In this document: in pieces, positions 16,489 through 35,200 of the stretch | How the letters are laid out: each line of letters opens with the position of its first letter | Numbering within the stretch: position 1 is the stretch's first letter | Notes under the pieces: model-generated | Told to the model about the DNA's origin: nothing | What the model saw: the letters and a program-made list of their open reading frames with translations, nothing else | Databases searched by the model: none | Translations under genes and position numbers: made by a program | NCBI GenBank assembly: GCA_021805025.1 | Contig: JAJZGF010000019.1 | Coordinates: forward strand, 1-35,866 | Origin: Acidobacteriota bacterium | Lineage (GTDB): Bacteria > Acidobacteriota > Terriglobia > Terriglobales > Acidobacteriaceae | Length of the DNA: 35,866 bases | Direction of reading: 5' to 3'

Positions 16489-19011
16489 ATGCACTCTCGT
16501 AATTTTGTGTTTATCACGCTGCTGGCCCTCTGTCATCTGCAACTTGCAGGGCAGGTGTTGACCAATGCGTTACCTGCGGCCGATCGTACACTAAAAGAAA
16601 ATCCCCCCAGCGGGCCGCAGCAGAGCCCGGCGTCGCTTCCTGACGACCCGGACCAGTACATCCTGCCCGTTGCGCGCCCGGAGCCGGGTGCAGCCACGGG
16701 AGTGCCGGTCCGTTGGGAGGCGCGGGAGCAATCGCGCACCGGAGACGCCTGGACGCTCAGCGGCGAGGTCGTCGTCTTCTATCGCGACTACATTCTGCGC
16801 GCGGACAAGGTTGTGTATCACCAATCCACCACCGAGTTGGATGCGGACGGTCATCTGCAATTGACCGGAGGGCCCCAGGACGCCTACATCAACGCGACCC
16901 ACGGCACCATCCTCCTCGATACGCACACCGCTAGGTTCTTTGACGTGGACGGCTCGCTGGGCGTGCGGCGGAGCGGAACCACGGTTGTGTACTCTACGCC
17001 GAATCCTTTCCTCTTCCATGGGCGCGTGCTGATGCAGGATGGCGATGGAAATTATCGGATCGTGGACGGCTCCATGACGAACTGCCGTTTGCCGCATCCG
17101 GATTGGCAGATCTTCGCGCACTCCATTCGCCTGGCCAATGACAAGGCATCTACATCCAATGCCCTGTTCAAGCTGCTGGGCATCCCCGTCTTTTACCTGC
17201 CCTATCTGAGCCATCCAACAAGCGCGAACAGTCGCGTGAGCGGGCTCCTGATCCCTGTCCTCAGCAGCGGTTCTTCGATTCGGGGCTATACCTTCGGTGA
17301 GCAGGTCTATTGGGCCATCAACCGCAGCATGGATATGGTGGTAGGCGCGGAATACTTCAGCAAGCGCGGCTACGCACCGAATGGCGACTTCCGCTACAAG
17401 GGCGCTGGCCTGAACAGTTTGACGGTGCGATGGAATGCGCTTCTTGACCGGGGAATCGAACAAGAGGTTTTGACCGGGCCCCAGGCAGGCACCTATGTTC
17501 TGATGAATCAAGGCGGTGTCGACATCCTGGGGCAGGGTCGCAAGGATCTGTCGGATGAGACACGCCTTGCCGGAAACGTTGAGTACCTTTCCAGCTACGT
17601 CTACCGCCTGGTCTTCGCCGACGTCTACTCTCAGGCAGTCAACTCGCAGGTGCTCAGCGACGTTGCCATTACGCACGCCCATCACGGCTTTGTTCCATCG
17701 GCCTCCATTGATCGGTTCCAGACCTTCGCAAGCACCACCACCGGAGATGAAGTAAGGATCCTGCACCTGCCAAATGTCAGGTACGACGTGCTGGATGAGC
17801 CCATCGGAAACTCCCGCGCATACTGGAGCGTGGGCTCCGGCCTGGACTACCTCAGCCGCTCTGAACCGGACTTTCACGCGCGGAACATCGGCCGTGTCGA
17901 TCTGTATCCGAGCATGTCGCTGCCGATCGATGCTGGAGGGTGGAGCCTCGTCCCGCAGGTGGCGCTGCGGGATACCTTTTACACCGCCAGGCAATCGCCT
18001 GACCTGACCGGAGCCCACTCAGGGATACCCACCATCAGCCATGACCCGCTGAATCGATTTGACGCGGAAGCCTCCCTCGACGTCCGTGCTCCCGCCGTTG
18101 AGAAGGATTTCGAGCTGTCGAGATGGAATCGCCAGCTGCGTCACGTGATTGAGCCTGAGTTCACGTACCGGTTCGTCGGCGGCATTGGATCGCAGGCGCA
18201 GAATGTGCCGCTCATCGACACCGCCGATATAGCCACGGACACAAACGAGATGGGCTACTCGGTCACGCAGAGGCTCTATCTACGCCCGATAAACAGCGCG
18301 CCATGCGCGGCAACAGCGAGCAAGGATTGTGCAAGCTCGCCGCGCGAATGGGCCAGTTGGCGCATCTCGCAGGAGTACTTCCTCGATCCGACGTTCGGCG
18401 GCGCCTTGATTCCGAACCGGCGCAACGTCTTCGACTCGACACTGGACTTGTCTGGCGTTGCCTTCCTCACCACGCCCCGCAATCTTTCCCCTGTCATTTC
18501 GCGCATGAGGTTTGAGGCAATCGATAATCTCCGCATCGAATGGGATCTGGACTACGATCCGCGCCTCGGCAGAATTGAAGCGGACAATGTCTACGCCGGC
18601 TATTCTTGGGGCAGCACAACCGTTGGGCTCGGGCACGCCATGCTGAATGCCGTAGATGAGCGTAGCGGGAACGCATCCACCATCCAGAGCCAGCAGGTGC
18701 AGCCGTTTCTTTATATCGGCGCCCAGAGTCATGTGGGGTTTAACCTCGCGGCCAATGGCGGCTACGATTTCGTTCAGAACTCGCTACAATATGCAGCCGT
18801 ACAGGCCGTGTACAACTGGGACTGCTGCGGTCTGACCGTCGGCTATCGACGGTTCCAACTCGGCACGCTTGGCTCCGGCACGCTTGGCTCCGTAAGCCGC
18901 GATGAGACGGAGTGGCTTTACAGCTTTACCCTGGCCAATTTTGGCTCGATGGGAGACATTCGCCGCGCCAACACTGTCTTCCGTGACCCCACACAGCCTC
19001 CAGTCTATTAG
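16489..19011 (+). CDS. lptD: LPS-assembly outer-membrane protein LptD
   Basis: Outer-membrane beta-barrel that inserts lipopolysaccharide into the outer leaflet, with LptE. 840 residues: a signal peptide (1-21), a linker, an OstA/LptA-like beta-jellyroll (about 75-230; WTLSGEVVVFYRDYILRADKVVY) and the barrel (about 235-840), beginning after LLGIPVFYLPYLSHP. Mature cysteines occur at about 199, at 606 and 614, and as an adjacent pair at 779-780 (WDCCGLTVGYRR). The C-terminal CC pair matches the conserved disulfide partner of E. coli LptD, so redox-assisted folding is likely. Start ATG 16489; no strong Shine-Dalgarno sequence. A DsbA-like and a SurA-like gene follow on the same strand. It implies an LPS-bearing outer membrane. 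Confidence 0.92.
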   Translation: MHSRNFVFITLLALCHLQLAGQVLTNALPAADRTLKENPPSGPQQSPASLPDDPDQYILPVARPEPGAATGVPVRWEAREQSRTGDAWTLSGEVVVFYRDYILRADKVVYHQSTTELDADGHLQLTGGPQDAYINATHGTILLDTHTARFFDVDGSLGVRRSGTTVVYSTPNPFLFHGRVLMQDGDGNYRIVDGSMTNCRLPHPDWQIFAHSIRLANDKASTSNALFKLLGIPVFYLPYLSHPTSANSRVSGLLIPVLSSGSSIRGYTFGEQVYWAINRSMDMVVGAEYFSKRGYAPNGDFRYKGAGLNSLTVRWNALLDRGIEQEVLTGPQAGTYVLMNQGGVDILGQGRKDLSDETRLAGNVEYLSSYVYRLVFADVYSQAVNSQVLSDVAITHAHHGFVPSASIDRFQTFASTTTGDEVRILHLPNVRYDVLDEPIGNSRAYWSVGSGLDYLSRSEPDFHARNIGRVDLYPSMSLPIDAGGWSLVPQVALRDTFYTARQSPDLTGAHSGIPTISHDPLNRFDAEASLDVRAPAVEKDFELSRWNRQLRHVIEPEFTYRFVGGIGSQAQNVPLIDTADIATDTNEMGYSVTQRLYLRPINSAPCAATASKDCASSPREWASWRISQEYFLDPTFGGALIPNRRNVFDSTLDLSGVAFLTTPRNLSPVISRMRFEAIDNLRIEWDLDYDPRLGRIEADNVYAGYSWGSTTVGLGHAMLNAVDERSGNASTIQSQQVQPFLYIGAQSHVGFNLAANGGYDFVQNSLQYAAVQAVYNWDCCGLTVGYRRFQLGTLGSGTLGSVSRDETEWLYSFTLANFGSMGDIRRANTVFRDPTQPPVY

Positions 19012-19115
19012 GTCTCAGTCTGCTTCGCCTGCGCCTTTTTTTGCGCAAGGGAGCGCGGTGACGCTGCCGCAATTGGCCGGATTGCTGGAGTATCCTTGCA
19101 GAAGGAGATGCCCTC

Positions 19116-20060
19116 TTGTCCCGTTTCCGCAGATTCTCATGGATGTTATTGCTCGGGCTTGCGGCTGGCTGCAAGGCCCAGCCTGCCGCGCAAGGTAAAC
19201 TCGACCCGGCTGTCAGCCGCAGCATTGAAGTTCTGGTTCGTTCACAGTTCAATGTCCCGCTGGATTACGACGTAGTCATTGGCGCACGCACTGCGAGCAA
19301 AATTACAGGATATGACACGATTCCTGTCACAATCGTTCACGCCGGGAAATCTACTATCGTGGATTTTCTGCTCTCGACGGACGGGAAAACCCTCGCACGG
19401 CTCGATACCTTTTCCCTCACGCTCAATCCTTCCATGCATATTGACGTAGCCGGCCGGCCTATTCGCGGCAATCCCGCCGCAAAAGTGACTGTCATCAACT
19501 TTGATGATCTGGAATGCCCTTTCTGCGCGCGCATGCATCAGTCTCTCTTCCCGTCCACCATGGATAGATACAAGGACAAAGTGCGATTCATTTACAAGGA
19601 TGACCCGCTCACTGAGTTGCATCCCTGGGCGATGCATGCGGCAGTCGATGCTAACTGTATTGCTTCACAGAGTGACAGTGCATATTGGACCTATGTGGAT
19701 TATCTGCACTCACACGGGCAGGAGATCACCGGCTCGGATCGAAACGTAACCAAGAGCTTTGAAGCGCTCGACCGGATTGCGCGCCAGGAGGCAACACTGG
19801 CGAAGCTGGATGCGCCAAAGCTGGACGCCTGCATTGCAAAGCAGGATGAAACACAGGTGAGAGCCTCTGCCAAAGAGGCGGACAGCCTCGGCGTGGATGG
19901 CACCCCCGCGCTCTTCGTGGAGGGAGAGCGGATCAACGGCGCGGTACCGGAAGAGCAGCTTTGGCTGGTGATTGACAGAGCTCTGCGCGCGGCAGGCGAG
20001 CAACCGCCACCCTCCCCCACGCAACCGGCTCCAGCCAAGGAAGCGCCCGCCGCCCAATAG
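19116..20060 (+). CDS. DsbA/thioredoxin-fold lipoprotein (CPFC active site)
   Basis: A 314-residue predicted periplasmic thiol-disulfide oxidoreductase anchored as a lipoprotein. TTG 19116 is the start because AAGGAG precedes it by eight bases and it opens a signal segment (WMLLLGLAAGC) ending at lipobox Cys19. A roughly 85-residue N-terminal region precedes the thioredoxin fold. The active site is Cys134-Pro-Phe-Cys137 in NFDDLECPFCARMHQ, with the cis-Pro loop in VDGTPALFV. A Pro-rich tail ends the protein. Family members oxidise or isomerise envelope disulfides. Its position between lptD and a SurA-like gene suggests LptD as a client (inference). Confidence 0.85.
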   Translation: MSRFRRFSWMLLLGLAAGCKAQPAAQGKLDPAVSRSIEVLVRSQFNVPLDYDVVIGARTASKITGYDTIPVTIVHAGKSTIVDFLLSTDGKTLARLDTFSLTLNPSMHIDVAGRPIRGNPAAKVTVINFDDLECPFCARMHQSLFPSTMDRYKDKVRFIYKDDPLTELHPWAMHAAVDANCIASQSDSAYWTYVDYLHSHGQEITGSDRNVTKSFEALDRIARQEATLAKLDAPKLDACIAKQDETQVRASAKEADSLGVDGTPALFVEGERINGAVPEEQLWLVIDRALRAAGEQPPPSPTQPAPAKEAPAAQ

Positions 20061-20111
20061 GGCGGGCATCCTCTCCTGAGGAGCCGGAGCAACCGGGCAA
20101 AATCTCCGGCT
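20045..20111 (+). promoter_or_regulatory. Two consecutive hairpins between the dsb and surA-like genes
   Basis: Hairpin 1: GCCCGCC (20045-20051) pairs with GGCGGGC (20061-20067) across the stop codon. Hairpin 2: AGCCGGAG (20082-20089) pairs with CTCCGGCT (20104-20111) and is followed by GTTCTCT. They could reduce read-through into, or protect the 3' end of, the upstream message. Neither has a proper T-run. Confidence 0.35.
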
Positions 20112-20186
20112 GTTCTCTATCAGGCCGTCGGCCTTGGGATTTATCCTTAAATACAGAGCTCGATCTGGCTTGCAGGAGTCATTCGT

Positions 20187-21257
20187 TTGCACGACGTAGG
20201 CTATTTTTCTCACCGCACTCGTTCCACGGCACTCTCACTTAGCTGCGGGTTGCTCCTGCTGGCGTCTGCTGGCTGCCATCGCCCCCCCTCGCCGGACGTC
20301 ATGGCGACGGTGAATGGGAAAGAGATCATGCGTGCGGACCTGGACAAGTACTACCAGGCCAGTCTGGGAGACAGCTCTCAGCAGCCCACCCCGGAGCAAG
20401 CTGAAATCGTGCGTCTCAACGTCCTGAAGCAAATGATTGAAGATGAAATCCTCCAGCAGCGCGCGGCCAAGCTGAGTCTTGCGGCCAGCGACGAGGACGT
20501 GAACGCCAAGCTGACTGAGTTCAAGGCGCCGTTCACACAAGAGGAATTCGACAAGCAACTCAAGCAGAGGAACATCACACTGGACGACCTGAGGCGCGAT
20601 ATTCGTCGCTCTCTGACGAACGACAAGCTGATGAATAAGGAGATCTACTCCAAGATCAACATCACGGACGCGGACATCAGCAATTACTACAGCGCCCACA
20701 AAGCCGAGTTCAACTTTATCGAGCCTCAGTACCATCTCGCAGAGATTGCCGTCACCACAACCCCGCCTCAGCAGCCCGGGTCAATACCCGCCAAACCCAA
20801 TGAAGCGGAGGCGCGCAAAAGAATTCAAGCTCTTCTGAACCGGCTTCAAAGCGGTGAAGATTTTGGCGCTGTGGCCATGACATCGTCAGACTACGCAAGC
20901 AACGCATCGAACGGCGGAGATATGGGGTTCGTGGGTGAAACCGCGCTGCACAGCGACCCGACAGCCTACGACGCCATCAGCAATCTCAAGCCCGGACAGA
21001 TGACCGAGATCCTGCCTATCTATGACGGAACAGGACCAGGGCGACACGTCGTCGCTTTCGCGATTTTCAAGCTCATTTCCAAGGAACCCGCGGGCCAGCG
21101 CGAGATGAACGATCCCCGCGTGCAACAGGCAATCCGCCAGCAACTGCGCGAAGCGCACGCCCAGCTCTTGAAGAACGCCTATTTTGAGGTCCTTCACGAT
21201 CAGGCCACAGTGCGCAATTATTACGCTGAGCAGATCCTGAAGAATGGTAGTCGTTAG
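20187..21257 (+). CDS. SurA/PpiC-type peptidyl-prolyl isomerase lipoprotein
   Basis: A 356-residue predicted periplasmic chaperone/isomerase. TTG 20187 is the start: CAGGAG lies eight bases upstream and a signal segment (ALSLSCGLLLLASAGC) ends at lipobox Cys30. Residues about 35-175 form a SurA N-terminal-like helical domain (MATVNGKEIMRADLDKYY... EFDKQLKQRNITLDDLR). A parvulin (PpiC) domain follows from about 180 to 300 (YHLAEIAV; QSGEDFGAVA; GGDMGFV). A helical tail ends the protein. SurA-class proteins carry beta-barrel precursors, LptD among them, across the periplasm. Gene order after lptD recalls the E. coli lptD-surA pair. Confidence 0.88.
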   Translation: MHDVGYFSHRTRSTALSLSCGLLLLASAGCHRPPSPDVMATVNGKEIMRADLDKYYQASLGDSSQQPTPEQAEIVRLNVLKQMIEDEILQQRAAKLSLAASDEDVNAKLTEFKAPFTQEEFDKQLKQRNITLDDLRRDIRRSLTNDKLMNKEIYSKINITDADISNYYSAHKAEFNFIEPQYHLAEIAVTTTPPQQPGSIPAKPNEAEARKRIQALLNRLQSGEDFGAVAMTSSDYASNASNGGDMGFVGETALHSDPTAYDAISNLKPGQMTEILPIYDGTGPGRHVVAFAIFKLISKEPAGQREMNDPRVQQAIRQQLREAHAQLLKNAYFEVLHDQATVRNYYAEQILKNGSR

Positions 21258-23611: not shown

Positions 23612-24355
23612 CTAGCGCTTGTTGCTCTGCTTGATGAAATAGTCGATGAGCTCGCTTGAGGAGTTGTCCATCTCCACATCGAACGCCTCGACGCGACCCG
23701 TAAAGTAGTTGAACGCCATAACGGCCGGAATTGCGACCAGAAGGCCGAAGGCGGTCGTAACCAGAGCTTCAGAAATACCGCCGGCAACCGCGCCGATACC
23801 CGAGGTCTTCTGCGTGGCGATCGCGTCGAACGCATGCAGGATGCCTACGACGGTTCCAAACAGTCCAACGAACGGGGCTGTGGAGCCGATGGTGGCCAGG
23901 ACGCTGAGGCCTCTCTTCAGCTTGGCATGAACGATGGCTTCCGCCCGTTCCAGCGCGCGCTGCGAGCTCGCGATCGTGTTTTCTGTTGCGGCGCCGCCCG
24001 ATGCCCGAAATTCCTGCAATCCGGCGGTGACTACTTCCGCAAGGTGCGACTTCTTATTGCGATCTGCAATCTTGATCGCTTCCTCAAGCTTGCTGTCCTT
24101 CAGCGCGCCGGCCACCTTGGGGGCGAACTCACGGGACTGCTTGCGAGCGGCAGAGAAGTAGAGGTAACGGTCGATCATGACAGCCAGCGACCAGATGGAC
24201 TCAATAAAGAGGACAATGGCCACACTGCGTGCCATCCAGGCCATATGTTCCCACAGCCCCATTGGGCTGAAGCTGACCGTTTGCTGATCTTCTTGAAGAA
24301 AAGCAAGGCTACTGACCGTGTGCGAAGCGAAATGTGCGAGCTGAGCGAGAATCAC
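23612..24355 (-). CDS. exbB: ExbB/TolQ/MotA-type proton-channel protein
   Basis: 247 residues from GTG 24355, chosen because TAGGAGG lies nine bases upstream; longer frames to 24403 lack this signal. Three membrane helices: about 44-62 (SVAIVLFIESIWSLAVMIDRY), about 150-175 (ATIGSTAPFVGLFGTVVGILHAF) and about 188-212 (GISEALVTTAFGLLVAIPAVMAFN). A cytoplasmic helical stretch lies between the first two. The second and third helices match the TolQ/ExbB/MotA channel signature. ExbB pentamers surround an ExbD dimer and use the proton gradient to energise TonB. Between tonB and the two exbD genes. Confidence 0.95.
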   Translation of the reverse strand: MILAQLAHFASHTVSSLAFLQEDQQTVSFSPMGLWEHMAWMARSVAIVLFIESIWSLAVMIDRYLYFSAARKQSREFAPKVAGALKDSKLEEAIKIADRNKKSHLAEVVTAGLQEFRASGGAATENTIASSQRALERAEAIVHAKLKRGLSVLATIGSTAPFVGLFGTVVGILHAFDAIATQKTSGIGAVAGGISEALVTTAFGLLVAIPAVMAFNYFTGRVEAFDVEMDNSSSELIDYFIKQSNKR

Positions 24356-24490
24356 TGAATCGTTCCTCCTAAGGAGTTTCTTGTGCACTGCAGTTTGGTG
24401 CAATTGCTGGGAATGCGGTTCTTGCCGGATCGCATTCGGGTCGAAAGTTTAGCCCTCTGCTTGGACAGGAGAAGAGGACCAGTGTGAGCC

Positions 24491-25207
24491 TCACCCACCC
24501 AGGCTGAAGATCACGTTGATCGTGGTTTCCACCTCTACAGGTTCATTGTTAAGGAGGTAGGGCCGGTAGCGCCATGACTTCACCGCGTCCAGAGCAGCCT
24601 GTTGCAACATTGCAGGGCCGGATATGACGCGAAGATTTTCAATGGTTCCAGCTTTGGAGATGGTTGCTTGCAGGATAACCGTACCGGAGACACGTGCCGC
24701 TTTGGCGATAGGCGGATAGATCGGCTGCGTCTTCTGAATCAACATACCGACGGCAACGCCTGCTGAAATATTGACTTTCTTGGGAGGAGCCGCCTGGACC
24801 TTGGGGGCGCCACTGCCGAATACGCTACCCATCACGCCGTTTGCGCTGCCACCCAGGCCTTCCATGCCGGCTACGCCAAAGCTCGATGGCGGAGCTTCCT
24901 TCTCAGACACCATCTTGATGTCGTGGGGAATCTTGGTGGGCGCCAACAGCTGATTGTTCATCATCTGCTGCTGCACATGCACCACATGCACCTCAGGAGG
25001 CGGAGGCGGCGGAGGTGGCGGCGGGGGCGGCGGGGGGGCAACCAGCAGGGTCTGCATCATTGCCTTTGGCAGAGCCTCGGGGTAAATCAAGGGAAGAAGG
25101 ATCAGAACCAGCAGGATGCTACCGTTCGTGATGAACGTCACGATCATCCAATACTTGCTCTTGCTCTTGATCCTGTTTCCTGATTCAAACGTGGAATCTT
25201 CAAACAT
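24491..25207 (-). CDS. tonB: Energy transducer TonB
   Basis: 238 residues. A cytoplasmic N-terminus (1-19) is followed by one helix (WMIVTFITNGSILLVLILLPLIY, about 20-42). A run of 14 prolines (58-71) spans into the periplasm, then a Gly/Ser linker. The TonB C-terminal domain covers about 150-238: QPIYPPIAKAARVSGTVILQATI, AALDAVKSWRYRPYLLNNEPVEVET. It transfers ExbBD motor energy to outer-membrane TonB-dependent transporters; none is encoded in this window. First gene of the operon, with a plausible promoter at 25306-25335. Confidence 0.95.
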   Translation of the reverse strand: MFEDSTFESGNRIKSKSKYWMIVTFITNGSILLVLILLPLIYPEALPKAMMQTLLVAPPPPPPPPPPPPPPEVHVVHVQQQMMNNQLLAPTKIPHDIKMVSEKEAPPSSFGVAGMEGLGGSANGVMGSVFGSGAPKVQAAPPKKVNISAGVAVGMLIQKTQPIYPPIAKAARVSGTVILQATISKAGTIENLRVISGPAMLQQAALDAVKSWRYRPYLLNNEPVEVETTINVIFSLGG

Positions 25208-25305
25208 GGCCAGCCTCGAATCGGGTGTTGGTTACCTCTACTTAGACACCGGGTGAAATTGAATTGTTCCCGGGCACCGAAACAGTACCACAAAAGTGTG
25301 TTCAA

Positions 25306-25335
25306 CCTATATCAGAAGTGCAGTAGACTTGCCAA
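25306..25335 (-). promoter_or_regulatory. Candidate sigma-70 promoter for tonB-exbB-exbD-exbD-TPR
   Basis: On the minus strand TTGGCA (25335-25330, five of six to TTGACA), an 18-base spacer and TATAGG (25311-25306, four of six to TATAAT). It lies about 100 bases before the tonB ATG, in the gap after which the operon begins. Confidence 0.4.
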
Positions 25336-25374
25336 ACGTGTCGTGAAATCGGTGCATTCCTGTTCCCCATCCGG

Positions 25375-26337
25375 CTAGGCTTTGGAGCGCTTTGCAGCCG
25401 GTAAAGCAACGCCCTTGCCGCTTCCTGAGCGCCATTCCTGCCAGGCCACCAGCATCGGCGCGGCCACTGCGATGGACGAGTAAGTTCCGATCAGAATCCC
25501 CACCACCAAAGCGAACGAAAAACCATTCAACACCTGTCCGCCGAAGATGTAAAGCGAAAGGACGGTCAGGAAAGTCAAACCCGAGGTCAAAACCGTTCGG
25601 CTCAGCGTCTGATTGATGCTGCGATTGACAAGGTCAGGCAGCGGCTCCCGGCGACTGAGACGCAGGTTCTCGCGGATGCGGTCGAAGACGACGATGGTAT
25701 CGTTCATCGAATAACCTACCAGGGTCAGGATCGCCGCAATCACCGTGAGGCTGATCTCCTTGTCGAGAAGCGCGAAGATGCCAACCGTAATCAGGGTGTC
25801 GTGGAAGACCGCCACCACGGCCGCCACGCCGTAGATGAGCTGGAAGCGAAACCATAGATAGATCAGCATGCCCAGCAGCGAATAAAGCGTGGCCAGGCCC
25901 GCCTGCCGCTCCAGCTGATGGCCCACGGTCGGGCCCACAACCTGTACGTTCCGCACCGTGAATGGGTTGTTGTAGTGGGTCCGCAGGGCGTTCTCAATCT
26001 GCGTTCGGCCGGCGTCCAGCGCCGCCTCGTTGGTCTGCTCAGGCAGGCTGATGAGCATTTCGTTCGTGCCGCCCCCGCCGTAGGTCTGAATCTTGGCATC
26101 CCTGACGCCTGCAGCCTCGGTCGCCTGGCGGATCAGGTTGGCATCGGGCGTCTGCTGAAACTGCACCTGAATCTGCGTACCGCCGCGAAAGTCCACACCC
26201 AGCGGAACCGGGCTGCCAATTTTCGCCCAGTGCACGCCCATCGAGACAATGCCCGCGATGCTAAAGATCAACGAGAAGCCCAGGAAATACCACTTCTTCC
26301 CCAGCCAATCCACATTTACGCCGTGAAACAGTTCCAC
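25375..26337 (-). CDS. secF: Protein translocase subunit SecF
   Basis: 320 residues. With SecD it forms a proton-driven inner-membrane machine that pulls Sec-translocated proteins into the periplasm. Helix 1 (about 17-36) precedes a periplasmic P1-like domain starting VDFRGGTQIQVQF. Five further helices follow from about 138, including VAVFHDTLITVGIFALL and a GYSMNDTIVVFDRIRENLR loop characteristic of SecF. The tail is basic. Start GTG 26337. Follows secD after 87 bases; likely co-transcribed. Confidence 0.97.
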   Translation of the reverse strand: MELFHGVNVDWLGKKWYFLGFSLIFSIAGIVSMGVHWAKIGSPVPLGVDFRGGTQIQVQFQQTPDANLIRQATEAAGVRDAKIQTYGGGGTNEMLISLPEQTNEAALDAGRTQIENALRTHYNNPFTVRNVQVVGPTVGHQLERQAGLATLYSLLGMLIYLWFRFQLIYGVAAVVAVFHDTLITVGIFALLDKEISLTVIAAILTLVGYSMNDTIVVFDRIRENLRLSRREPLPDLVNRSINQTLSRTVLTSGLTFLTVLSLYIFGGQVLNGFSFALVVGILIGTYSSIAVAAPMLVAWQEWRSGSGKGVALPAAKRSKA

Positions 26338-26424
26338 TGGTTCTCTGCCTTCCTCAATACCGGGCCCAACGGTCCCGGCGTTTCCTGTTGCTTCCTGCCG
26401 CGCCTGCCGTGTGGCGGCGCGAGC

Positions 26425-28041
26425 CTAAATTGAAACCATCTGCCCCGGCTTCATCCGGTTCAGGTGCGCCTCGAAGATTACTCGCGAGACATAGACCGCC
26501 GTGAACAGGTTGGCCGCCAGACCGAACGTGAGCGTGACGGCAAATCCCTTGACCGGCCCGGTACCGAAGAGGAACAGAATTCCGGCCGAGACGATCGTTG
26601 TCACGTGCGTATCAAAAATTGTCGTCCAGGCATGTGCAAACCCCTGGTCAACCGCAGCAGAGGCCGCCTTGCCCGCCCGAATCTCTTCCCGGATGCGCTC
26701 GAAGATCAGCACATTGGAGTCCACGCCCATACCGATGGTCAGGATGACTCCGGCGATGCCCGGCAGTGTCAGAGTGGCGCCTGAAAAGCCCATGAAGCCC
26801 AGCAGGATCACTAGGTTCAGAAACAGCGCCAGGTCGGCGTTGATGCCCGAGCTCTTGTAATAGACCAGCATGAAGGCCATCACCACCAGCACGCCGACAA
26901 CGGCCGCCGTCACGCCTTCCTTGATCGAGTCCGCGCCAAGTGAAGCGCCAACGGTGCGGTCTTCCAGATAGTTCAGCGAAGCAGGCAAAGCGCCTGTGCG
27001 CAGCATCTTCGACAGAATCTCAACCTCGTCCGCCGAAAAGCTGCCCGTGATCTCGCCCGAGTCGCGAATGGCGCTCTTGATGTTGGCCACTTCCTTCACG
27101 CGACCGCCCAGCACCACGGCCATGCTGTGGCCCACATTGGCACTAGTGTAGTCGTAGAACTTGTCGCCGGCCTCGTTGGTCAGGGTAAAGCGCACATTGC
27201 GCAAGCCGTTCTGGTCCGTGCCGGGGTCGGCGGAGCGGAAGTCGCTGCCGGCCACAATCGACACCCGCTGCAGCACGTAGACGCTGTCTGCATCCGAACC
27301 GGTCGCGAGCGCTCCGGAGCCATGTACCAGCTCTTCATCGGGCGGAAGCGTTCCGCCCACGCTGCCCAGCGCCGCCTGCTCATCCTGGTAAGGGCCCCCC
27401 ACCACAGCATGAATCTCAAGCCGCGCAGTGGACTGGATGATCGCCTTTACGCGGTCCAGGTCGCTGATGCCCGGCAACTCAACGAGAATCTCGTCCTTGC
27501 CCAGGCCGTATTCTTGAATCACAGGCTCGCTCACGCCCAGCGTATCCACACGATCTCGAATCGTCTCGATCGCCTGCTGCACCGTCTTCTCTTCGAGGGC
27601 AGTCTCGACCAGAGGCTTCATGGTCACCGCGAAACTGCCGTCTCCGCCCCCGCCCGTAACGTCGTATTCGCCCGAGTACTTGTTGTCCAGCAGCGACCGG
27701 ACAGCGCTGGCCTGAGCCGGATTTGTCCCCTCGATGCGGATCACCTCCGGCTTGGCCGGGTCGGGCTTGTAGATCTGCGAGAAGGTCAGGTTTGCCGCCT
27801 TCAGATCCTGCTGAATCCGCGCCACAGTGTTGTCTGTCTCCGCGCTCACCGCCTCGGAAACGACCACCTGGAGGATCAGGTGGGCGCCGCCGCGCAGGTC
27901 CAGACCGAGGTGGATGTGCCTGGTCATGCTCTCCAGCAGAGCCTTGCCGGAAAGCCCCGAAGGCACGCCAAAGATGCCGTAGACAAAAATCACCAGCACT
28001 GCCACAATTGCCGCAATTTTGCTATTGAGATTCTTCTTCAT
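26425..28041 (-). CDS. secD: Protein translocase subunit SecD
   Basis: 538 residues. Helix 1 (about 9-28) is followed by LGLDLRGGAHL (about 45-55), the SecD signature. Large periplasmic P1 domains follow (to about 370), including VDTLGVSEPVIQEYG and LVELPGISDLDRVKAII. Five C-terminal helices contain GVILTIGMGVDSNVLIFERIREE, with the conserved Asp implicated in proton coupling, and end near 530. Start ATG 28041 with GGAGA just upstream. Follows yajC after 153 bases and precedes secF. Confidence 0.97.
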   Translation of the reverse strand: MKKNLNSKIAAIVAVLVIFVYGIFGVPSGLSGKALLESMTRHIHLGLDLRGGAHLILQVVVSEAVSAETDNTVARIQQDLKAANLTFSQIYKPDPAKPEVIRIEGTNPAQASAVRSLLDNKYSGEYDVTGGGGDGSFAVTMKPLVETALEEKTVQQAIETIRDRVDTLGVSEPVIQEYGLGKDEILVELPGISDLDRVKAIIQSTARLEIHAVVGGPYQDEQAALGSVGGTLPPDEELVHGSGALATGSDADSVYVLQRVSIVAGSDFRSADPGTDQNGLRNVRFTLTNEAGDKFYDYTSANVGHSMAVVLGGRVKEVANIKSAIRDSGEITGSFSADEVEILSKMLRTGALPASLNYLEDRTVGASLGADSIKEGVTAAVVGVLVVMAFMLVYYKSSGINADLALFLNLVILLGFMGFSGATLTLPGIAGVILTIGMGVDSNVLIFERIREEIRAGKAASAAVDQGFAHAWTTIFDTHVTTIVSAGILFLFGTGPVKGFAVTLTFGLAANLFTAVYVSRVIFEAHLNRMKPGQMVSI

Positions 28042-32273: not shown

Positions 32274-35200
32274 TCAGTCCACAGTCAGCGACAATGTCAC
32301 GTTGTGCGAGAGGCCATTCGCCGTTGCCGTCACCACACCACCGAGTACGTCCCAGCGGGCGTGGCGCCGGGCGCGGGCGAGCTTGGCGCTAAACCCGTGC
32401 CACCGCCCGCGCCGGCACAACTCGACAGCCCGCCTGCCAGGACAAGCCCGGCGATTCCCATCAGCCACTTCCGGCGGCGTCGCCAGGCCAGCGGCAGCAA
32501 CACCAGTCCGCAGGCCACGGGCCACTCACTCCAACCGTAAGGGTGCCGGACCTGCGCCGCGACCGCCGCCTGCCCGGTGGCAATCTGCACGGTCACATGG
32601 GAAGTCGCGTTGGCCGGCACCGCGTCACTGGCCGGGTTGAAGGTGCAGGACGCGTTCGCGGGCAAAGTGCCGCACTGAAACGTGAAGGTCGCGGTTGTGC
32701 CCCCCTGCGGCGCAAGGTTCAGCGTAAAGCTGGCTGTCTGACCGCTGGCCACGGTCTGGCCGGACTGCCCTCCAACCGCCGCCGTAAAGTCGAAGCCGGT
32801 GCCCGAAAGCGACACCTGCGCGCCGGCTGCCATTGCAGAGCTGGCCACCGTCAGGCTGCCGGATTGCTGACCGGTTTGCGCAGGGGCAAAGGTCACGCCG
32901 GTCGTGCAACTCGCGCCGGGAGAAAGGCTGGCGGGGCAGGCGTTATTCGCGATCTGGAATCCGGTGGAGGCAGCCAGCGTAAGGCTGGTCAACGTCACGC
33001 CGCCCGAATTCGTAACTGTCACCGTCTGTGCGCTGCTGGTTGCTCCTACGCCGGTCGCCGGGAAGGTCAGAAGGCCGGGCATCATCTGCACTGACCCCGC
33101 CAGCCCGCCCGCGCCGCTAAGGGTCACCGTAGCCGGCATAAAGACCGGCGAACTCACCGTGAGTGTTCCCGCCGCCGTGCCGTTGGCCGTGGGCGTAAAC
33201 ACCACGCCTGCCGTGCAGCTTGCCCCCGCGGCGAGCGTTGCTCCGCAGCCGTTCTGCACCAGGCTGAAGGGTGTGCCGTGCTGAACGTAAGTCCGGTGGC
33301 AGCCGTAGCGCCTGAGTTGGTCACCGTGACGGCTTGAGCTGCGCTGGTCTGGCCCAGCGTCGTGACCGCAAAGCTCATCTGCGCTGGACTCACGTTCAAA
33401 CCCGAAACCGCCTGCCCCGTTCCGCTCAAGACAACCGTCGCCGCCTTCACGCCGAGGGTCGACGAAGTCACCGTGAGCGTGGCCGTGTTGCCGCCTGCAG
33501 AGGCGGGCGTAAAGATCGCCTGGACCGTGCAACTGCTTCCGTTGGCAAGCGTTGCGCCGCAGGTGCTGGCGCCGGTAGAAAAGCTGTTCGCCCAGGGGCC
33601 TGTGATCTGGAAGCCGACATTGGCCATGGGCGCCCCGCCGGTGTTGCTGATCGTCAGCGTCTGGGGCGAAGAGGCCACGCCTGTCTGCTGCGTCGGGAAA
33701 CTCAGGCTCGGCGGGCTCACGGCAAAGGCTGGAGGCAGCAGCCCGGTTCCCGCAAGGGCGATGGTCTGCTTCTTCAAGATGTCTGTGACCGTCAGGACGC
33801 CGGGCTGCGATCCGGCCGCGGTGGGCGCAAAGGTCACGCTCAGCGAGCAGCTTGAGTTGGCCGCCAGTTGCGTACCGCAGGTGCTCGCCACCTGATAAGG
33901 TCCGCTTGCGACCGCGGCAATCGAGGTCAGCGGCACGCCCCCGCTGTTGGCCAGTTGCACAGTCTGCGCGGCGGAAGCCTGCCCGATGATGGTGCCGGCG
34001 AAGGTGAGGGACACGGGTGAAAGCGTGTCGGTGGGCGGAGCCGCACCGGTTCCGCTCAGCGCCACAGTCTGGCTTCCGCTGCTCGTCGCAAGCGTCAGGG
34101 TCCCGCTCGCCGCGCCAGCCTGCGCAGGCGCAAACTCAACCGTCAACTGACAGTCGCTGCCAGCTGCCAGGGAGCTGCCGCAGGCGTTGCTGGCCAGCAC
34201 GAACGGCGCGGTCGCGGCGATGCTCGAAACGGGTACCGCGCTGGTGCTGCTGTTTTGCACCGTCACCTGCAGCGCGGTCGAGGTTGTGCCCACCTCGACG
34301 TCGCCGAAGCTCAGAGAGACGGGAGCCAGTTGCACCGGCCCGGCGCTCGTCCCCGTTCCGCTCAGCAATACCGTAAGTTGTCCGCCGGCAATATTCGCGC
34401 CGATGGTCAACAGCCCGGACCGCGTGCCGGTCTGCGTGGGCGTAAACGTGACCTGGATCGTACAGCTCGCTCCGCCATTCACCGTTGCGTTCAGGCAGTT
34501 GTCCGTCTCGCTGAAGTCACCGCTGGCTGCAATTGCCGAGGGCACAAGAGCAATGCTGCCGGTGTTGGCCAGGGTGACGGTCTGTGTCGCGCTGGTGCTG
34601 CCGTAAGTCTGGCTGGCAAAGGTTAGCGTCGTGGACGTCGCCGTCGCAGTGGTCAGTTGCGTTCCCGCCGTCCACAGCGGAATCTGCCAGACTCCACGCC
34701 CGTATGTCCCGGCGGCCAGGACCGTGGGCGAGACAGATGAAGGCGCCGCGCTGAGGGCTACGACCGGCGACTGGGGCAATCCCGCTCCGAACGGTGTCCA
34801 GCAGTTGGAAGCCCCGGCCGCGCAGGTGGCAATCTGCCGGGTTGAAAAAACGCCCGCATCTGTCGCCAGATAAACTGTGTTCGCGTCCTGCGGGTCCACC
34901 ACAACGCCGCTGACAGGCGTCTCGGGCAGGTTGGATGAGATCGTGGCCCAGTGCGCTCCGCCATCCGTCGAGCGATAGATCGTGCGCACGGCCAGTTGCG
35001 GATTGCCCATGCCCTCCACGGTCACCTACACGGTGTTGCCGGTCGTATCGTGCGGGTCAATGTAGATGCTCGAAATATCGAAGCCGTTGACGTTGAAGCC
35101 CATGGTGTCATTCGTGACCGGGCTCAACGTCAGGTCCTGCCACGCAGGGATCGATGCGCTCGACGGATTGTAGAGGGCGCTCAACGCATGGCCTGCTTTG

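Follow-up and report, generated by a model that had tools for sequence, protein, structure and literature searches.

In Escherichia coli K-12 the gene for LptD, the outer membrane protein of lipopolysaccharide (LPS) assembly, stands in the order lptD-surA-pdxA-rsmA, beside the gene for the chaperone SurA and apart from dsbA. The known LptD barrel consists of 26 strands, and E. coli SurA contains two parvulin domains. The course of LptD maturation is known from this organism: the first disulfide, between cysteines C1 and C2, is rearranged before the translocon is activated. According to PMC10567701, DsbA joins C1 and C2 first, the bond is then isomerised to C2-C4, and C1 and C3 are oxidised afterwards; DsbA, DsbC, LptE and LptM are the players in this oxidative maturation. 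Here we analyse a stretch of 35,866 nucleotides from an Acidobacteriota draft genome (contig JAJZGF010000019.1 of assembly GCA_021805025.1; the window), in which lptD precedes, on the same strand, genes for a Dsb-like thiol-disulfide oxidoreductase (dsb) and a SurA-like chaperone (surA), both predicted lipoproteins. The trio is conserved within one bacterial family. Its stable part is the dsb-surA pair, which has been joined to or separated from lptD many times in the Acidobacteriaceae, so that the genes of a chaperone and an oxidoreductase stay paired beside a changing neighbour.

Open reading frames (ORFs) and Pfam matches confirm the trio on one strand, as the original prediction had it, together with the LptD cysteines at 199, 606 and 614 and the CC pair at 779-780. 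The membrane anchors proposed for both helper proteins agree with lipobox-like motifs in 80/80 Dsb and 66/76 SurA-like relatives, and the E. coli gene order to which the locus was compared is that given above. As in E. coli, a SurA-type gene follows lptD on the same strand; in contrast to E. coli, a Dsb gene separates the two, the predicted SurA-like lipoprotein has a single parvulin domain, and -10-like elements precede both dsb and surA. The intergenic gaps are 104 bp (lptD-dsb) and 126 bp (dsb-surA). The window's family, coded f1 here, consists of soil bacteria and is taken to be the Acidobacteriaceae from its named relatives, of which the nearest is the metagenome-assembled genome (MAG) DBS1-2.bin51 (Dsb identity 98 percent). 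The window's own draft genome is 96 percent complete and consists of 320 contigs.

Judged from match coordinates, 38 of 41 f1 genomes have dsb and surA side by side. In 27 of the 41, lptD lies at most 2.2 kb upstream of dsb (22 with a match-to-match gap of at most 1 kb, five at 1-2.2 kb), and in the other 14 it is farther off, inverted or on another contig. Loci from named genomes, the best 80 of 388 Dsb matches and biased to close relatives, were inspected as well. Here surA directly follows dsb in 77 (two others are contig ends and in one it was not seen), and lptD lies within 500 bp upstream of dsb in 53 (52 by script and L159 by eye), at 0.7-2 kb in five, at 5-6 kb in two and inverted in one; it was not found in 15 and is cut off by a contig end in four. 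These counts include four loci scored by script as "surA other" and L159, scored as "lptD other", all reassigned as adjacent by eye, where the stop-to-stop ORFs overlap. Median gaps in the named loci are 134 bp for lptD-dsb (n=51) and 97 bp for dsb-surA (n=76).

On a Dsb tree of 118 rows made by a quick method, linkage to lptD changes at least 15 times when distances up to about 2 kb are scored as linked (80 linked, 28 unlinked, 10 unscored); three Dsb proteins are doubled in the tree and in the promoter sets below, each coming from a genome present in a named and an unnamed copy. The early branches are mixed, with L022, L023 and L233 linked at about 1 kb and L113, L114 and L115 unlinked, and the forks are weakly supported, so that gain and loss of lptD linkage are not distinguishable. 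Nine of the 15 unlinked named loci have a homologous, divergent upstream gene in place of lptD, a prolyl oligopeptidase in the one tested. Because dsb and surA remain adjacent in more genomes than either keeps near lptD, because lptD linkage has changed so often and because both genes have promoter-like elements of their own, dsb-surA is the stable unit of the locus.

The search for LptD covered 247 genomes of the phylum, 227 of them with a match, and 200 genomes of the window's class, 196 with a match. LptD matches below 300 bits were left out, as was L001, which is part of the window. From the phylum set 100 lptD neighbourhoods were examined (23 from f1, one from another family of the class, 76 from outside the class), and the class set added 40 more, 11 of them from f1. 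Among these loci the trio was found in f1 only. It occurs in 0/76 loci outside the class and in 0/30 class loci outside f1, several of these stretches ending at contig ends, and in the added class set neither dsb nor surA was near lptD at any of 29 loci outside f1. Conservation of the gene order, which the original prediction had named as a check across the Acidobacteriota, is thus seen within f1 and not supported beyond it. Within the family the order is beyond chance, recurring in many genomes of several genera in a set whose LptD identity to the window goes down to 44 percent. A phylum-wide trio was considered and rejected; of the 76 loci outside the class, one (L073) has a Dsb-like ORF upstream of lptD. 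That ORF (L073:1-2890, genome G064, family f38) is cut by the contig start and stands some 150 bp before lptD in the same orientation, possibly an independent Dsb-lptD neighbourhood in a distant family, in one case only. A different arrangement is seen in L094:7817-12562 (G005), where two lptD genes stand in tandem. In titles and the opening parts of abstracts on LptD disulfides, DsbA, SurA, VKOR and Acidobacteria, and in passages of PMC7074687, PMC10567701 and PMC4555120, no description of the lptD-dsb-surA arrangement was found.

The lptD gene of the window is the single match in its genome (E <= 0.001). It is assigned by PF04453 (LptD; E 1.1e-17, 64.9 bits against a curated cut-off of 22.4) and PF19838 (E 7.9e-9), and scores 85.1 bits against the NCBIfam equivalog PRK03761, under the cut-off of 683, which membership of the wider family does not require. 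Besides the five cysteines named above the protein has only C15, in the apparent signal peptide. These were compared in an alignment of 143 LptDs, 36 from f1, 30 from elsewhere in the class and 77 from elsewhere in the phylum (L110 and L116 were left out, coming from the same genomes as L007 and L021). C199, in the beta-taco domain, is conserved throughout and aligns with the cysteine of "GSFTSC"-like stretches in solved LptD chains; we take it to be the counterpart of E. coli C173 (C2). C779 has an equivalent in all 143 proteins and C780 is found at the exact column in 115. This CC motif, presumably equivalent to E. coli C724-C725, is also paired with solved LptDs in a second, non-significant alignment stretch. 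C199 with C779/C780 matches C2 with C3/C4 as candidates for a bond between taco and barrel. Four LptDs (L038, L046, L048 and L054) mirror the usual pattern, with a cysteine doublet at the N-terminal site (about 194-204) and a single C-terminal cysteine.

Two features set the window LptD apart from that of E. coli. It has an extra pair, C606/C614, and no counterpart of C31 (C1). The extra pair is present in every f1 LptD of the alignment and in none of the others (Table 1); L099, an LptD from outside the family, has two cysteines in this region, at other columns. We regard this family-specific pair as the finding most worth following, and it makes a functional link of the helper proteins to LptD worth testing. 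No cysteine lies between residues 15 and 199 of the window protein, and an E. coli-type C1-C2 intermediate therefore cannot form. The stretch after residue 24 and before C199 is free of cysteine in 21 of 24 f1 rows, against 37 of 77 rows from outside the class. Absence of C1 throughout the phylum was rejected, as the other 40 of these 77 LptDs have some cysteine in this stretch, at best a candidate C1. The f1 proteins, without C1 and with an additional internal pair, offer a natural test of which disulfides are needed, and some members of the family are cultured.

In a structural model of the window LptD (pLDDT 72.3), 26 strands of at least 8 residues follow the taco region; the loop that joins strands 16 and 17 holds C606/C614, and the turn from strand 24 to 25 holds C779-C780. 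The two turns share strand parity and so would lie on the periplasmic side. The model suggests that all five mature cysteines are periplasmic and within reach of an anchored Dsb protein. If two intramolecular disulfides form, one of the five is left unpaired.

The second gene encodes a thioredoxin domain with a CXXC motif and a proline loop, of the DsbA/BdbD type (Thioredoxin_4, PF13462, E 1.1e-26; DSBA, PF01323, E 8.6e-8). Its only NCBIfam match, Rcas_1661, is under the cut-off (55.5 bits against 190). The catalytic domain of the model (pLDDT 89.6) fits BdbD 3eu3 best (Z 22.4, root mean square deviation (rmsd) 2.5 over 180 residues), and it shares fold, CXXC and proline loop with the BdbD/DsbA-type structures 3eu3, 4pwo and 3gyk. 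It differs from these in a lipobox-like motif around C19, recognised here and in the SurA-like protein by the lipobox pattern rule, in an extra N-terminal domain of roughly 70-90 residues without a Pfam match, and in a second invariant cysteine pair, C181/C239. Among 80 relatives the active site, CPFC (residues 134-137) in the window, is CPYC or CPFC in 73 and CGYC in three; four were unmatched by the pattern.

Every one of the 41 f1 genomes has an orthologue of this protein that scores at least 288 bits. Among the other 159 genomes of the class, the matches listed reach at most 202 bits, with the exceptions of G401 and G408, the latter a MAG with 6 percent contamination whose contig with the Dsb match also carries an f1-type LptD and SurA-like gene. 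The highest score outside f1 in the phylum set is 172 bits. The window's genome has four further PF13462 matches. A Dsb paralogue (G000:C68:23966-24880, L107; 367 bits) has no surA neighbour in the stretch examined, and similar paralogues occur in G061 and G094.

The third protein has a SurA-type N domain (SurA_N_3, PF13624, E 4.4e-17) and a single parvulin stretch (Rotamase, PF00639, E 2.9e-13), and is for this reason named SurA-like. An hhalign comparison with E. coli SurA (probability 98.3) covers the N domain and the first parvulin domain; the second is missing, in contrast to SurA. The layout is shared with SurA/PrsA parvulin chaperones, PrsA-like lipoproteins in particular having a similar arrangement, and the scores stay under the NCBIfam cut-offs for SurA (58.7 against 394 bits) and PRK00059 (108.9 against 303). 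Its cysteines are C20 and C30, of which C30 stands in a lipobox-like context. Close homologues occur in 192 of the 200 class genomes, nearly always as a single match (E <= 1e-40), and the protein is therefore more widespread than the trio and not tied to the window LptD. Three further PF00639 matches occur in the window's genome. Outside f1, in examples picked by eye, the SurA-like gene lies on the same contig about 20-35 kb from lptD in G257, G282, G294 and G314, and about 0.4-2.3 Mb from it in G264, G300, G336, G345 and G373.

A -10-like hexamer (TATCCT/GATAAT types) occurs 10-50 nt before the start of dsb in 84 of 97 sequences (shuffle mean 3.2) and before that of surA in 59 of 94 (shuffle mean 2.2), the pattern having been picked after reading the sequences, which are related, and the shuffles being mononucleotide. 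Where lptD lies within 500 bp, dsb has the hexamer at 50 of 52 loci; where there is no lptD, at 9 of 15. The sequence pattern argues for separate promoters of dsb and surA. A generic sigma-70 scan gave no excess over shuffled sequence (2 sites against 1.9). The stretch from dsb to surA has one weak terminator-like site, at 20093-20109 (+), in a scan that gave 8 sites against 4.6 in shuffles.

VKOR is a likely reoxidant of the Dsb protein, its gene being found in 24 of 26 f1 genomes; DsbB gave a weak match (E 2e-4) in one of the 26. G023, rated 100 percent complete, is without VKOR. In G073 (C78:2510-3634) neighbouring Dsb and VKOR matches on one strand both fall in an open frame 534 aa long, and are therefore probably parts of a single VKOR-Dsb fusion; the frame around a VKOR match in G121:C11 is equally long.

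We lean towards reading dsb-surA as a general anchored folding module for exported, mainly outer membrane, proteins that often stands behind lptD. Since the two genes keep together more faithfully than they do with lptD, their products give the impression of a folding pair of general use, with LptD probably one of its clients. The SurA-like protein would hold unfolded LptD in the periplasm; the Dsb protein would oxidise the local C606-C614 pair and help to link C199 with C780 (or C779), taco to barrel; a VKOR protein would reoxidise Dsb. Several observations weigh against a general module. Its gene pair has lptD nearby in two thirds of f1 genomes, far above chance, a closeness that may mean a tighter tie than such a module implies, and the Dsb orthologue and the C606/C614 pair share the same family limit. 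The -10-like pattern precedes lptD too (57/79, shuffle mean 2.2), and the putative promoter elements, as sequence matches among relatives, would be compatible with read-through from lptD. Searches of the window's own draft genome found no VKOR and no DsbB; a lineage without electron acceptor, once suggested by this absence, was rejected on the VKOR count in f1, and because of that count the gap may reflect the incomplete draft. With a VKOR-Dsb fusion in a relative, the main partner of VKOR may also be another protein.

The shared family limit and the proximity of lptD would suit a dedicated unit, in which Dsb and the SurA-like protein mainly serve LptD and Dsb makes the family-specific disulfide or disulfides. 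We think this improbable. A limit shared on one branch is a single coincidence with no replicate, f1 genomes with dsb far from lptD still have C606/C614, and lptD is often separated while dsb-surA is kept. The self-contained LptD folding unit of the original prediction is for the same reasons an overstatement of a real, family-conserved trio: adjacency favours dsb-surA over lptD, dsb and surA are each preceded by a promoter-like element, the SurA-like protein occurs across the class, and the genome holds further PF13462 and PF00639 proteins. At the other extreme, lptD and dsb-surA could owe their closeness to descent and have no particular functional tie, as the many linkage changes, the divergent gene that replaces lptD at nine unlinked loci and the C199 and C779 equivalents of LptDs that lack this Dsb orthologue would allow. 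Such mere inherited proximity is also doubtful, given that the order recurs in 27 of 41 genomes and several genera, in a set with LptD identities down to 44 percent, and that surA beside lptD is the E. coli order as well. A further possibility concerns the enzyme itself, which might be a DsbC/DsbG-type isomerase or reductase, not an oxidase, correcting mispairings such as C199-C606. In Foldseek, the full length of the model with its N domain aligns to DsbC (best E 3.0e-7, about 280 columns) and DsbG (best E 3.3e-6), DsbG rows reach Z about 14.7 (one spanning 52-288), the hhalign match to E. coli DsbC begins in the N domain though weak (E 4e-4, probability 34.8), and the Thr before the proline and the CPYC/CPFC site, with CGYC in 3/80, would fit. 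However, the full-length DsbC/DsbG superpositions have an rmsd of about 12-14, the catalytic domain resembles BdbD, ScsC and DsbA-type proteins most closely (Z about 19-22), and the N domain finds no Pfam family; we rate an isomerase as unlikely. Equally tentative is a wider scenario in which the Acidobacteriaceae gained the C606-C614 disulfide together with an anchored, SurA-like-paired Dsb protein that makes it, and gave up C1, so that the translocon would be activated by a disulfide route other than that of E. coli, without C1-C2.

Table 1. Features of the lptD-dsb-surA locus, in positions of the window.
Feature	Position	Strand	Details
lptD, LPS-assembly outer membrane protein	16489..19011	+	840 aa, ATG start
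Codon of LptD C199, beta-taco domain	17083..17085	+	conserved in 143/143 LptDs
Codon of LptD C606, family-specific	18304..18306	+	36/36 f1, 0/107 others
Codon of LptD C614, family-specific, in loop between model strands 16 and 17 with C606	18328..18330	+	36/36 f1, 0/107 others
Codons of LptD C779-C780, turn between model strands 24 and 25	18823..18828	+	conservation and model
-10-like element TATCCT upstream of dsb	19091..19096	+	sequence match
dsb, Dsb-like thiol-disulfide oxidoreductase lipoprotein with extra N-terminal domain	19116..20060	+	314 aa, TTG start
Codon of Dsb C19, predicted lipid-modified Cys	19170..19172	+	invariant in 45-row alignment; lipobox-like pattern 80/80
Dsb active site CPFC, residues 134-137	19515..19526	+	sequence
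Dsb Thr263-Pro264, presumed cis-proline loop	19902..19907	+	T263 and P264 invariant (16 rows); P264 invariant (45 rows)
-10-like element TATCCT upstream of surA-like gene	20142..20147	+	sequence match
surA, SurA-like single-parvulin lipoprotein chaperone	20187..21257	+	356 aa, TTG start

The trio is flanked by genes on the minus strand, a divergent one for an RDD domain protein upstream and a convergent one for a TPR protein downstream, which by eye has a lipoprotein-like start. Past the trio, positions 23612-28041 (-) form an envelope-rich stretch of exbB/tolQ-like, tonB-like, secF and secD genes. Towards the end of the window, at 33154-35025 (-), a 623 aa protein matches several ASH/HYDIN-like Ig-domain families, which are best known in eukaryotic ciliary and centrosomal proteins.

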